Below the pieces are notes generated by a model, which did no database searches, was not told where the DNA came from, and worked only from the letters and a program-made list of their open reading frames with translations. Made by a program: the position numbers and the translations under genes. Of a DNA stretch of 64,000 nt, positions 50,881 to 57,632 are shown piece after piece; the first letter of the stretch is position 1, and each line of letters begins with the position of its first letter. Origin of the DNA: Ammonifex degensii KC4 (GTDB taxonomy: Bacteria; Bacillota; Desulfotomaculia; Desulfotomaculales; Ammonificaceae); NCBI RefSeq assembly GCF_000024605.1, contig NC_013385.1, positions 1,812,175 through 1,876,174 on the forward strand. Reading direction: 5' to 3'.

Positions 50881-52146
50881 TCAACCTCCCCAATGCATGA
50901 TGGCTTCTTCTAAGGTTTTCTCCCGCCGGGCTACCTCTTGGAAGCTCTGACCGCTGGTCGCCGCCTCCACCGCCGCCCGCACGGCGCTGGCCCCGGCTCG
51001 GGTACCCCGGGGGTGCCCGTGCACTCCCCCACCAAACTGCAGCACACAGTCCACGCCAAAGATGGAGATGAGATCCGGTATGTGCCCGGGATGCAGCCCG
51101 CCGGAAGCCACCGACAAAACCGGCTTTATCTCGCCCCAGTCCTGGGGGCGGAGGAGATCGCCGGAGACGGGGGAGGCGTTGCCCAGCGCCGCGTGGCAGC
51201 GCAGCACGTCCTCTTTATCCCCCTCCATCTTCCCCACCACGGTGCCGATGTGCAGCTGGTCCACGCCGGCCAGGCGGGCCAGTTTGGCCAGCACCAGCAT
51301 GGATATACCGTGCCGCCTGTTCCGGGCAAAGCTGGCGTACATGGCGCGGTGGGCGTGGATTATAAGTCCCAGGTTGGCCTTGCGCAGGCTTAAGAGTCCG
51401 GAAAAGCCGGCTGTAACTATGTCCACCATCACGTAGCGCCCGCCTTCCCGCTTTACCAGTTCCGCCCGCCGGATCATCTCCTCCGTCTCCGCCGTCACGT
51501 TGGGCAGGTAGACCTTCTTTTCCCCTGCCTCCGCCTCTGCCCGAGCGCAGGCCTCCAGGCTTCGCTTGACCCGCTCCTCGAAGGGGGAGAAGGGCTGAGA
51601 GGTCAGGTTCTCGTCGTCCTTGACTAGATCAAGCCCTCCTACCAGCGCCTCGTAGACCACCTCGGCCTGCTCCCGGGGGCTAAGCCCCAGCTTGGGCTTG
51701 ACGATGGTACCCACCAAGGGCCGCCCGTAAATTCCTAAGGTCTCCCTTACTCCCTGGACGCCGAAAGCCGGTCCCAGCGACCCGGATACGAGCTCGGGAG
51801 GAAAACTTATGTCCAAAAGCCTTAAGTTCTTCACCGCCTTCATACCGAAGATGTTTCCGGCTATGCTGCTCAAGTACTGGGGGATGTTCCCCGGCTCGAA
51901 AAGGGCAGCAGGATAGGCAATCTTTACCACGTTTCCTTCTATGGCATATACCCGCGCCCGCAACTCCTCCCATATCCTGGGCTTCATGGTGGCCACGTCG
52001 GTCCAGGTGCCGATAGAAGACTCCGAAGCTACCGCCCCGGCAGCCTCGTAAATGTCCACCCCCTCCGCCGGCTCCACGTAGAAGCAGGCCAGACAGTCAG
52101 AAGGAGAAGGAGTGTAGTTGAGTTCTACGAAATCACTGTAGCGCAA
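50881..52146 (-). CDS. rbcL: Ribulose-1,5-bisphosphate carboxylase/oxygenase, form III type
   Basis: 421 residues, shorter than form I and lacking any small-subunit gene nearby, as for form II/III enzymes. All key residues are present: K150 in GTIVKPKLGL, the carbamylated K176 with D178/E179 in GLDLVKDDEN, H266/R267 in IIHAHRAM, K306 in the loop-6 sequence VVGKMEGD, S348 in SVASGGLHPG and the glycine loop FGGGVHGHPRGT. It is therefore a true carboxylase, not a RubisCO-like protein. Form III assignment is by length and motif style (no tree made). TTG start after TAGGAGGTG. Gap to prk is 4 nt. Confidence 0.93.
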   Translation of the reverse strand: MRYSDFVELNYTPSPSDCLACFYVEPAEGVDIYEAAGAVASESSIGTWTDVATMKPRIWEELRARVYAIEGNVVKIAYPAALFEPGNIPQYLSSIAGNIFGMKAVKNLRLLDISFPPELVSGSLGPAFGVQGVRETLGIYGRPLVGTIVKPKLGLSPREQAEVVYEALVGGLDLVKDDENLTSQPFSPFEERVKRSLEACARAEAEAGEKKVYLPNVTAETEEMIRRAELVKREGGRYVMVDIVTAGFSGLLSLRKANLGLIIHAHRAMYASFARNRRHGISMLVLAKLARLAGVDQLHIGTVVGKMEGDKEDVLRCHAALGNASPVSGDLLRPQDWGEIKPVLSVASGGLHPGHIPDLISIFGVDCVLQFGGGVHGHPRGTRAGASAVRAAVEAATSGQSFQEVARREKTLEEAIMHWGG

Positions 52147-53050: not shown

Positions 53051-53088
53051 ATAAAAGGGGCACCAGGATTTCCTGGTGCCCCCATTTT
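53051..53088. terminator. Strong stem-loop after the HEPN pseudogene
   Basis: GGGGCACCAGG-ATTT-CCTGGTGCCCC (53057-53082), a perfect 11-bp stem with a T-rich tail on both strands (TTTTAT on minus, ATTTTTC on plus). It ends transcription of the coaX-dusB-MNT-HEPN unit. Confidence 0.85.
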
Positions 53089-53103: not shown

Positions 53104-53521
53104 CTATCCTTTCAGCCGCTCACTTACGAAGTCGATCACCAACCGGGCCAGTTCCAGGGCTCGCTGCCCGTCGGCCTCATCGAAAGCTTCCGCCGGAATC
53201 CCTCCGGGCAAGCCGTTAGGGTAGCGGGTGGGGATGTAGTACTTGTCCAGAGCGGCCGCCTGGCGCCGCACCTCTTTAAAAGAGCGCTCGAGTTTGGAAG
53301 CCAAGCTAGCCAGCTCCGCCACCGAATGGCCGCGAACCTCCGAGATGCCCCGAGATGCCCCGGGAGTAAAGGAAAGCTTTCAAGGCTCTCTCGGCGCTCT
53401 GCTGGGCCAGAAAGCAGGTTAGGTGATACCTCTTCCCTTGGAAGCAAAACTGGGCATCCTCGTAATCATGAAGCGCCTGGCGCCACCAGCGCTCAGCTTC
53501 TTCCTTCGGGCTTCTCCTCAT
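53104..53521 (-). pseudogene. HEPN-domain protein, frameshifted by a 10-bp tandem duplication
   Basis: N-terminal part (ATG 53521) reads ERWWRQALHDYEDAQFCF, YHLTCFLAQQSAERALKAFL, the typical HEPN helix pair. The frame is then lost after YSRGIS. The rest (AELASLASKLERSFKEVRRQ to SERLKG, ending 53104) is in another frame. At about 53339-53360 the 10-base unit GAGATGCCCC is present twice in tandem. Removing one copy gives SRGISEVRGHSVAELASLA and one continuous protein of about 135 residues. It overlaps the end of the MNT gene, the usual MNT-HEPN arrangement. Confidence 0.8.
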
Positions 53522-53852
53522 AAACCAGCCTGCCCTCCTCGAGAATGCGCCGCACAAAGTCCCTGCTGGAAGAAAGCTCGGCCAGCTCCTCCGGGGTGTA
53601 GATCAAGATATCTACCGCCACCCGGGGCTGCACTTCCCTGAAGAAAACCTCCAGACGCTCAAGCCAGGGAAGCTCCGTCTCCTGCACGGCGAGAAGGTCG
53701 AGGTCGCTGCCCGCCGTCACCTCATCCCGGACTAAGGACCCGAAAACGTAAAGCTTTTTAAACTTCAACCGGGGGCAGAAAGAAATGATCCGGTTAAGTT
53801 CTTTAAGCAGCAGACGCTTGCGGCGCCTATCTTCCTTCCAGGTGACCCGCAC
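53493..53852 (-). CDS. MNT-type minimal nucleotidyltransferase (antitoxin-like partner of HEPN)
   Basis: 119 residues. Nucleotidyltransferase core LYVFGSLVRDEVTAGSDLDL (GSxxR...SDxDL) and a later VAVDILIYT carrying the third acid. GTG 53852 is the likely start: TGGAGG lies 7 nt upstream and this removes a 56-nt overlap with dusB. In MNT-HEPN pairs the MNT protein AMPylates or otherwise neutralises the HEPN RNase. With the HEPN gene broken, it would stand alone. Confidence 0.82.
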   Translation of the reverse strand: MRVTWKEDRRRKRLLLKELNRIISFCPRLKFKKLYVFGSLVRDEVTAGSDLDLLAVQETELPWLERLEVFFREVQPRVAVDILIYTPEELAELSSSRDFVRRILEEGRLVYEEKPEGRS

Positions 53853-53889
53853 CGGCAAAACCTCCAGACTCTGTTTTCTCAAAACCAGT

Positions 53890-54870
53890 TTAGCACGTTT
53901 GTACCTGATAGAGGTATCTTTCCAGGAGAGACCGGAGGGCAGCAAAATCGCGGGCCTGGTAGGCCTGACCCCGGAGGGCAGAGGCTCCGGGCAAGCCGCG
54001 TGTATACCAGTCCACCACCATCCTTCCCCGGTTGAGCGCCTTATCGCCGTAAAGCGCCTCCAGTAAGGCCAGATGCTTTAAGCCCTGAGCCACCCGTTCC
54101 GCCGGCGAAGGAGGAGGAGGTATCTCGCCGCTGAGAGAGTATAGCTGACAGCGGGTGAAAATCCAGGGGTTGCCCCGTGCCGCCCTTCCTACCATAACCC
54201 CGTCACAACCGGTCGAAGCAAGCATCCGCAGGGCATCTTCCGGAGTCCGCACGTCGCCGTTGCCTATGACGGGAATTTTCACGGCTTCTTTGACCCTCCG
54301 TATGGCCTCCCAGTCGGCCCGTCCCCCGAAAAACTCGTGCCGGTAGCGCCCGTGCACGATGAGCGCCTTAGCCCCAGCTTCCTCCAGCAGGCGGGCCATC
54401 TCCCAGGCCGGGGGACTCTTCTCGTCCCAGCCTTTACGCAGCTTGACGGTGACCGGCACCTTTACCCGCCGGCAAACCGCCTCCACTATAGCCGCCGCCT
54501 GGCGCGGGTCGCGCAAAAGAGCTGCTCCTGCTCCTATCTTCACCACCTTTTCCACCGGGCAGCCCATATTGAGGTCGACCGCCACCGCCCCCGCTTCTTC
54601 CACCACCAGGGCTGCCTCCGCCATCTCCTCCGGATCGCTGCCGAAAAGCTGGGCTACCACCCCTTCTTCTCCCAGAAAGTCGAGCAGGTGCTTTCTCGCC
54701 TCGGAAGAGCGGGCCAGGGCCGGAGCCGGTAGCATCTCCGTCCAGCAGAGGCGCGCCCCGCCTTCGCGAGCCACTAGGCGGAAGGCGCGGTCAGTTATGC
54801 CAGCCATGGGAGCCAGTACTATAGGGAAGCCGGAAGAGAGTAAGGAAAAGAAGTCAGCGGTTGCGCTCAT
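53890..54870 (-). CDS. dusB: tRNA-dihydrouridine synthase
   Basis: 326 residues, FMN TIM barrel. It shows LAPMAGITDRAFRLV near residue 20, the catalytic cysteine in LNMGCPVEKVVKIGAGAAL, KLRKGWDE, HGRYRHEFFGGRADW and GNGDVRTPEDA. Reduces specific uridines in tRNA with NADPH. Start overlaps the coaX end by 17 nt. Confidence 0.94.
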   Translation of the reverse strand: MSATADFFSLLSSGFPIVLAPMAGITDRAFRLVAREGGARLCWTEMLPAPALARSSEARKHLLDFLGEEGVVAQLFGSDPEEMAEAALVVEEAGAVAVDLNMGCPVEKVVKIGAGAALLRDPRQAAAIVEAVCRRVKVPVTVKLRKGWDEKSPPAWEMARLLEEAGAKALIVHGRYRHEFFGGRADWEAIRRVKEAVKIPVIGNGDVRTPEDALRMLASTGCDGVMVGRAARGNPWIFTRCQLYSLSGEIPPPPSPAERVAQGLKHLALLEALYGDKALNRGRMVVDWYTRGLPGASALRGQAYQARDFAALRSLLERYLYQVQTC

Positions 54871-55663: not shown

Positions 55664-55960
55664 CCGGCCCCCAGACCAGGCGTTCGCCTCCTTTCTGGAT
55701 ACTTGATTTGCTGCCCCCTGGGGAGGACAGCAGGGCGACAGGGGGCCTCGGCCCGGGAGTCCCACCCGGAGTGCCCGCGGAAGAGTCCTCTCCTCCCGTA
55801 CCCCGGACTCGCCTGCGCGGACTTCACGGGGTGCTTTTTTGCACCCGCAGGTCGGAGTTCGCCGGGATAGGGGTGGCGTCAGTCCGCCACCGCGGGCACC
55901 GTCCTGTTAGGACGCCTACCGGGTTTGTCCGACACCCGGCTAAACGGGGTCACCGGAAAG
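55640..55960 (-). ncRNA. Candidate TnpB guide (omega) RNA region
   Basis: Roughly 300 nt between the tnpB stop and the hairpin hold no plausible gene but several clear stems. They are GGTGGCG/CGCCACC (55872-55891), GTCCT/AGGAC (55901-55913) and GGGTGC/GCACCC with a six-base loop (55829-55846). TnpB guide RNAs come from the 3' end of tnpB and the element's right end, with the guide being the flanking DNA beyond the right end. Position, structure and terminator fit; the RNA itself is an inference. Confidence 0.45.
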
Positions 55961-57632
55961 CCAAAGCCAGCATTTTAAGCTCGCGCCAGCAGGAACTGAA
56001 GCTTTCCTGCTGCCAGCGGGCAAGCCCGTTGTGCAGGGGAAGCTTCTTTTCCAGCCGGGCAAGCAGGGCCCTGACCTTCCGGGTCATCCCTCTTCCTTCC
56101 CCAGGCAAGGAATCACCGGAAGCGAGCTCCTCTTTGACCCGGAGCACGAACTCCTTAATTTCCCGCGTGATCCTCTCCTTGAAGCCCATGGCCCGGCGGC
56201 CGATCACCAGTGCCGCCGCGCAGTGCACCGGGACCGCGTACCGCCCCGCGTACTTCCAGTACCCGATGGTGGAGGTGTGCCGCGGCGGTACCAGCTTAAA
56301 GGGCACACCTTCCTTGGCCGCCCTCCGGCACACCGCCTCCACCATCTTCGCGTAGGGAAAGTTGGAAGCTATGCGGTTAAACTTTTTCAGGTCGGCCAGC
56401 CGGTCCTTGCCGAAGTCTAAGTCCTCCAGGACCACGGGTTTGCCCAGGAAGAGGGCTATGTCCACCACCACCTTGGCCAGCACGCCTATCAGGTAGTCCC
56501 GCCGGAAGCCGGAAGCGTAGGTCAGGTCGGGCACCCTAATGTACATGAAGCCCGAGGGGTAGGTGATGACCTGGAACTCCCCCTCGTACTTGCCCAGGTT
56601 GCCTGGGTAGGGGACGCCGAAGCCTTCCGGCCAGGGCTCCGGCTGGCCGTTGGGACCGACGCTGCATAAAGCTACGCCGTCGGGGTTCGTGTCCAGGGCC
56701 AAACAACCTTTAGCAAAGTCAGGCTCTCGCACCCCACCCAGGTCGAAGGTCAGGTGGACCAAATACCGTCCATCCAGAGTGCGTATCAGTTCCGCCGTGT
56801 AGGGCAGCTTCATGGCCAGCCATATTCGCACTAAGCTCCGGTGCTTCTCTGGCAGCCAGAGCCTGCCCTCCACCCTCGGGGCGCGGCTCATCTTCGGGCG
56901 GCCAAGCTCGTCCTCACCCACCTTCTCCGAGAGGTGGGAGATGGTCGCCGACAGGTAGAACTCCCCGTTCCGGTGGAAGACTTTGATGTTCGGGTTGCCG
57001 CCTTTCTCTTCGTCCCCACGGGAGTAGAGGCGGTTTTTGCGGGCGTGCCGCCACTCCTCCCGCGTGGCCCGGCCTTTGCAAACCCTCTTCCAGAGCTTCC
57101 TACCCCCGAAGACCACCTTGGGTAAGGTAGAGCTCTCCAGGTGGGATCTGAGTTCGGCCAGCTTCTTTTCCAGGGAGGCTACACGTGAAGCGCGGCCCTT
57201 GACCGCCAGGCGCAGCTTTTCCAGCACGGCAGGGGCGGCGCCCTTCTTTTCGGCCCTGGCCAGCTTCTTCATGGCTAAGCCCAGCTTCTTCCTGGCCCGG
57301 TTCAGCTTCTTTTCCGTCTCCTCTACTTCCTGTGCCAGGAGCTCTTTCTGGGAGTCCAGCAGGGCCTGGGCTCTAAGCCTGGCATCGTCCACGTACCGGG
57401 AGTTGAGCCCGAAAAGCTTCTGGCCGCGCTTTTTAATTTCGTCCCGGGAGACACCCTCCAAGAGGCGGTTGAAGGCCCAGCGGTGGCAGGCGCAGAAGAG
57501 CCGCATCTCCGTCTCCAGTGGGTCTTCCTCGCCCCGGGCCCATCTCGCCGACCTGAAGGCGGGGTAGACTTCCGGGAAGAACTCCCCGCAGACGGTAAAG
57601 CTAAACTTCTCCCTTTTGTGCTTTCTCCGCAC
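55950..57632 (-). CDS. tnpB: TnpB-family RuvC nuclease, copy 2
   Basis: 560 residues. RuvC-I D314 in LALDTNPDGVALC, RuvC-II E403 in VVLEDLDFGKDRL, and the third motif VPVHCAAALVIGRRAMGF where the position matching D358 of copy 1 is H470. No zinc-ribbon CxxC pairs between motifs II and III; PPRHTSTIGYWKY takes their place. An extra charged coiled coil sits at about 95-165. It is well diverged from copy 1, so the two are separate acquisitions. Whether His at the third position supports cleavage or marks a binding-only protein is open. Start overlaps the HTH gene end by 32 nt. Confidence 0.85.
   Translation of the reverse strand: MRRKHKREKFSFTVCGEFFPEVYPAFRSARWARGEEDPLETEMRLFCACHRWAFNRLLEGVSRDEIKKRGQKLFGLNSRYVDDARLRAQALLDSQKELLAQEVEETEKKLNRARKKLGLAMKKLARAEKKGAAPAVLEKLRLAVKGRASRVASLEKKLAELRSHLESSTLPKVVFGGRKLWKRVCKGRATREEWRHARKNRLYSRGDEEKGGNPNIKVFHRNGEFYLSATISHLSEKVGEDELGRPKMSRAPRVEGRLWLPEKHRSLVRIWLAMKLPYTAELIRTLDGRYLVHLTFDLGGVREPDFAKGCLALDTNPDGVALCSVGPNGQPEPWPEGFGVPYPGNLGKYEGEFQVITYPSGFMYIRVPDLTYASGFRRDYLIGVLAKVVVDIALFLGKPVVLEDLDFGKDRLADLKKFNRIASNFPYAKMVEAVCRRAAKEGVPFKLVPPRHTSTIGYWKYAGRYAVPVHCAAALVIGRRAMGFKERITREIKEFVLRVKEELASGDSLPGEGRGMTRKVRALLARLEKKLPLHNGLARWQQESFSSCWRELKMLALAFR

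Follow-up and report, generated by a model that had tools for sequence, protein, structure and literature searches.

In the 64-kb window, the whole stretch of Ammonifex degensii DNA that was analyzed (64,000 nucleotides, C1:1812175-1876174), an exact 10-bp tandem duplication lies within a minus-strand HEPN gene of the PF05168 family and splits it into an N piece and a C piece in different frames, and the neighboring gene for a minimal nucleotidyltransferase (MNT) is whole. We consider it quite probable that this mutation has recently inactivated HEPN within a chromosomal, toxin-antitoxin-like class II HEPN/MNT operon. The lesion itself is an everyday pseudogene event, and its value lies in the decay asymmetry, in which it is one natural knock-out among many; the direction of decay bears on whether class II HEPN/MNT pairs are toxin-antitoxin pairs, and on which partner is toxic.

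A 10-bp tandem duplication splits the HEPN gene

The unit GAGATGCCCC occurs twice in direct succession, at 53342-53351 and 53352-53361, and the period-10 run covers 23 bp at 53340-53362 (plus strand, CCGAGATGCCCCGAGATGCCCCG) with 100% identity, corresponding to 2.3 copies, or two full units plus 3 bp. No other exact tandem duplication in the window has a unit of at least 10 bp, and 60 order-3 Markov windows gave a mean of 0.22 such duplications per window; the mere existence of a 10-bp tandem duplication in 64 kb is only mildly unusual. The duplication counts as real because of its place, since the halves of the Pfam HEPN domain flank the repeat in two frames and the gap against the congener is exact. 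The 20-base two-copy string was found in 5 of the 196 loci fetched, and all five are overlapping copies of the 53340-53362 site.

The same locus is present in Ammonifex thiophilus, the sole other genome of the genus compared, where the unit occurs once and the HEPN gene is a single 147-aa ORF. When we aligned the DNA of the two species, a gap of exactly 10 columns appeared at the repeat, which rules out a chance repeat at 53340-53362. Because the congener has one copy and an intact frame, the duplication is an insertion on the A. degensii lineage. The single unit of A. thiophilus is flanked on both sides by CGG, 10 bp apart, and this 3-bp microhomology would be the expected seed of a 10-bp duplication.

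The N piece (53306-53521, minus strand) comprises 71 codons from the likely HEPN start, ATG 53521, within an ORF spanning 53306-53557. It matches PF05168 positions 1-49 and terminates after 14 foreign residues, retaining helices 1 and 2 and the QxxE motif. The C piece (53104-53322, minus strand), of 72 aa from GTG 53322, matches positions 58-116 and retains TRYPN. Both pieces pass the PF05168 cut-off of 22 bits, with scores of 50.3 and 37 bits, and neither half carries a second lesion. A likely intrinsic terminator, a 12-bp inverted repeat followed by a T run on the gene strand, lies behind the HEPN gene at 53057-53082 (minus strand). At the matching place the congener has a hairpin that has diverged, with bases altered on both arms.

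The MNT ORF (53493-53945, minus strand; PF18765, PF01909) is the first gene of the pair, lying upstream of HEPN and overlapping its ATG by 29 bp, and its translation may in fact begin further downstream than the listed TTG. Its translation reads GSLVRDEVTAGSDLD at the GSx10DxD motif. Thus the earlier note, which had described a clean 10-bp duplication that disrupts a HEPN gene and leaves its MNT partner intact, was correct on the repeat, on the broken frame and on the uninterrupted partner.

The pair as a decayed class II HEPN/MNT module

The window pair resembles class II HEPN/MNT modules (PF05168 beside PF01909; HEPN-T of Anantharaman et al. 2013) in that PF05168 is matched by both pieces, the MNT with GSx10DxD is adjacent and upstream, the HEPN is without RX4HXY, and the genes are small and overlapping. 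It differs in its HEPN frame, which the duplication interrupts, so the locus is a decayed member without an intact HEPN. With class I HepT/MntA (DUF86 or PF08780 with PF01909; type VII toxin-antitoxin) it shares the gene order, the partner folds and a weak match of the MNT to the MntA model; however, this match scored 23.1 bits, below the cut-off of 60, and the RX4HXY-bearing HEPN of class I (PF01934 or PF08780) was not found at the locus. The congener HEPN is matched nearly over its full length by TT1696 (1ufb), the ST0689-like 1wol and TM0613 (1o3u), with E values of 6e-16 to 4e-19; these are intact proteins, unlike the split HEPN of the window, and in TM0613 the conserved His is replaced by Tyr. 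A search of NCBIfam, PADLOC and the literature for a named system for the window pair gave nothing decisive.

In order to place the break on the protein, we modeled the A. thiophilus HEPN together with 15 relatives using AlphaFold2 (mean pLDDT 93.6). The model predicts helix 2 at residues 32-53 and helix 3 at 64-74, joined by a loop at 54-63, and the duplicated codons, at 54-57, fall in the predicted helix 2-3 loop. Among 16 intact sequences, the conserved Q41, E44 and K45 precede the break and R96, Y97, P98 and N99 follow it, and a mostly conserved His at position 62 lies after the duplicated codons. RYPN is invariant and RX4HXY is absent in these 16 relatives, as in class II. The passages cited here put forward Q44 and E47 as the active site of a class I HEPN from Legionella (PMC11586414). 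The QxxE of the present family may be likened to this pair, the equivalence being one of resemblance, and if class II has an alternative active site, it would perhaps consist of QxxE with a displaced His and Arg.

The 10-bp segment between the 3-bp CGG repeats was doubled, and we infer replication slippage as the most likely cause. The resulting frame shift at the codons of the helix 2-3 loop, with a stop 14 residues on, separates the N-terminal helices with QxxE from the half carrying the conserved His and TRYPN. HEPN would thereby have lost its function, and the MNT, which is read first in the operon, is unharmed. If HEPN is the toxic partner, as we also infer, an antidote left without its poison should be harmless.

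Age of the break

We then compared the two Ammonifex species by the Nei-Gojobori method. The omega values were 0.085 for HEPN N (53 codons), 0.079 for HEPN C (79 codons), 0.065 for MNT (125 codons) and 0.087 for dus (327 codons), so that purifying selection is evident on both HEPN halves at an omega of about 0.08, like the neighbors. With a reference omega of 0.083, the observed 10.5 amino-acid changes are unlikely if HEPN had been neutral for the last 10% of the lineage (p 0.05), and for the last 20% the p value is 0.002; a much stronger prior constraint (omega 0.03) shifts the limit on neutral time to about 20% of the lineage. HEPN is therefore unlikely to have decayed neutrally over more than about 10-20% of the lineage, and the dN/dS of the halves rules out an old pseudogene. 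One K to R change in HEPN lies at a column where all 16 intact sequences have K.

The constraint on both halves, which is based on two genomes, means that the break is recent, or is not real, or that the gene still works. It is what a working gene would show, and to that extent it speaks against recent inactivation. It would also be expected if the duplication were a sequencing or assembly error and the living strain had one copy and an intact HEPN, as would the absence of a second lesion, and the species is represented by a single assembly. However, a 10-bp duplication that is perfect and associated with 3-bp microhomology would be typical of a biological event, and the genome (2.157 Mb) is assembled in two contigs with a completeness of 99.6%; we regard such an error as unlikely. 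A split HEPN whose two pieces are both produced and act jointly is very unlikely. The stop of the N frame (53306-53308) overlaps the C frame starting at GTG 53322, so re-initiation is conceivable, and both halves are constrained; but GTG 53322 is the sole ATG, GTG or TTG start in the C frame and stands just past the conserved His codon, so a re-initiated C piece would be without this His, and an unbroken HEPN gene is seen in 114 of the 132 loci where both genes could be classed clearly.

The earlier note had also raised possible reversibility, with phase variation between one- and two-copy forms. Slippage can remove one copy of an exact tandem repeat, two 10-bp copies may revert at a low rate, and the preservation of both halves would suit a switch in which coexisting forms turn HEPN on and off. 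On the other hand, there are two copies only rather than a longer tract, no mixture of forms was seen, the one congener compared has one copy, so that one versus two is a difference between species, and the split HEPN genes of relatives carry other lesions. A literature search for reversible short duplications found nothing applicable. We found this part of the earlier note unsupported, and we give a reversible switch very little credence. Recent inactivation of HEPN is the reading favored by two further observations, namely a second split HEPN with a whole MNT in the same genome and a skew toward HEPN decay among relatives.

A second split HEPN in Ammonifex degensii

The A. degensii genome contains four PF05168 genes, and two of them are split. 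In the second (L049 1973-4312; G000:C1:516969-519317), HEPN is interrupted by about 2 kb containing two transposase-like ORFs (140 and 436 aa) that by eye resemble those of IS200/IS605 elements. The MNT gene located behind this HEPN is whole. The A. thiophilus copy of this HEPN is without the insertion and whole.

The break in L049 is also at the helix 2-3 loop, and five independent HEPN breaks (L001, L049, L086, L154 and L193) lie in or near this loop. We do not claim a hot spot, since central breaks are the easiest to detect as split halves; the clustering possibly reflects detection bias or a fragile site. The second HEPN of the congener (L054 1620-1970; G001:C17) is whole and has GYV where most relatives have GH (GHV). 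We do not claim this His to Tyr change as a further knock-out, because Tyr occupies this position in TM0613 and in another relative as well.

Decay census of PF05168 loci

Class II HEPN/MNT modules are common in thermophiles and archaea. To follow their decay, we collected all PF05168 loci reported in 41 relatives, of which 32 genomes had hits (87 loci), and a 61-genome phylum sample, which gave 59 further genomes (66 loci) since the first set already included A. degensii (G000) and G013. The census comprises 153 loci in 100 genomes and 156 rows, of which 132 were counted. HEPN and MNT HMMs were built from the first set and one automatic rule classed both sets; this rule was written after both hit tables were inspected, so the second set consists of independent genomes but was not blind. 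The census starts from PF05168 matches, and loci whose HEPN is wholly lost escape it.

Both genes were whole in 113 of the 132 counted rows (69 + 44) and both were broken in 2. HEPN was broken and MNT whole in 16 (8 + 8), distributed over 14 genomes, and the reverse was seen in one (L060), the second set alone giving 8:0. The 16:1 skew has a sign-test p of 1.4e-4, with kinship among genomes ignored. Reading the frames removes two of the 16, L175 (its second HEPN) and L184, in which MNT may be damaged too, and leaves 14:1 (p 5e-4). Without the two loci of A. degensii the skew is 14:1 by the rule and 12:1 after frame reading. Errors in draft genomes should strike both genes about alike (117 vs 101 model positions) and do not explain the skew.

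The 24 rows left out of 156 were four at contig edges (L092, L093, L097, L137), five with a broken HEPN and no detected MNT (L089, L095, L155, L158, L186), one spurious opposite-strand hit (L066), nine partial matches in long frames (L088, L130, L166, L178, L179, L181, L185, L190, L194), two loci with no hit in the census model (L174, L196) and three with a whole HEPN and no MNT nearby (L156, L157, L189). The rule missed a broken or truncated HEPN with a whole MNT in L066 (nonsense codon), L092 (contig edge) and L096 (5' truncation), and these were not added.

Two kinds of loci speak against decay that begins with HEPN. One is the counter-example L060 (900-1900; G014:C1), in which HEPN is whole and a stop interrupts the MNT frame, and the other is the three whole HEPN genes without a nearby MNT, which if counted as contrary give 16:4 (p 0.006). 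In L088 (500-1200; G013:C6), the N half of HEPN continues within one 190-aa frame into an MNT-like domain, which looks like the outcome of a deletion that fused a HEPN/MNT pair.

Which partner is toxic

The earlier note had spoken of a disarmed toxin. The broken HEPN frame and the whole MNT stand, and the decay skew favors HEPN toxicity, whereas the word toxin was assumed for a class II HEPN. We consider it likely that the broken HEPN beside an intact MNT is a disarmed toxin whose partner was spared. Since loss of a toxin is tolerable and loss of an antidote is not, a HEPN-first skew fits HEPN as the toxin; it supports the assignment of toxicity to HEPN in class II but does not prove it.

The cited passages of a 2020 paper (PMC7641770) give HepT as the toxin and MntA as the antitoxin of class I, describe class II as without RX4HXY, state that the authors knew of no biochemical study of it, and still call for its validation. 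Of the sources that assign the toxic role, a 2009 paper guessed, in the part cited, that MNT is the toxin (PMC2701414), and the part cited of a 2013 study reassigned this role to HEPN across the superfamily from a screen and gene order (PMC3710099). Because HEPN was lost first and MNT remained whole in 12 to 14 genomes of the survey, we lean toward the view that class II HEPN is toxic despite the missing RX4HXY and that MNT is its antidote, so that class II would be a true toxin-antitoxin family using a different active site and the duplication one of its natural knock-outs. In the passages cited, this view agrees with class I (PMC7641770) and with the 2013 proposal (PMC3710099), and contradicts the 2009 guess (PMC2701414).

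Other ORFs in the window

Elsewhere in the window, a 421-aa ORF at 50881-52146, of RuBisCO large-subunit type by eye, adjoins a transaldolase-like ORF. The 560-aa ORF at 55950-57632 resembles a TnpB-type protein by eye, and a 21-bp tandem repeat, which is imperfect, lies at 57260-57311.
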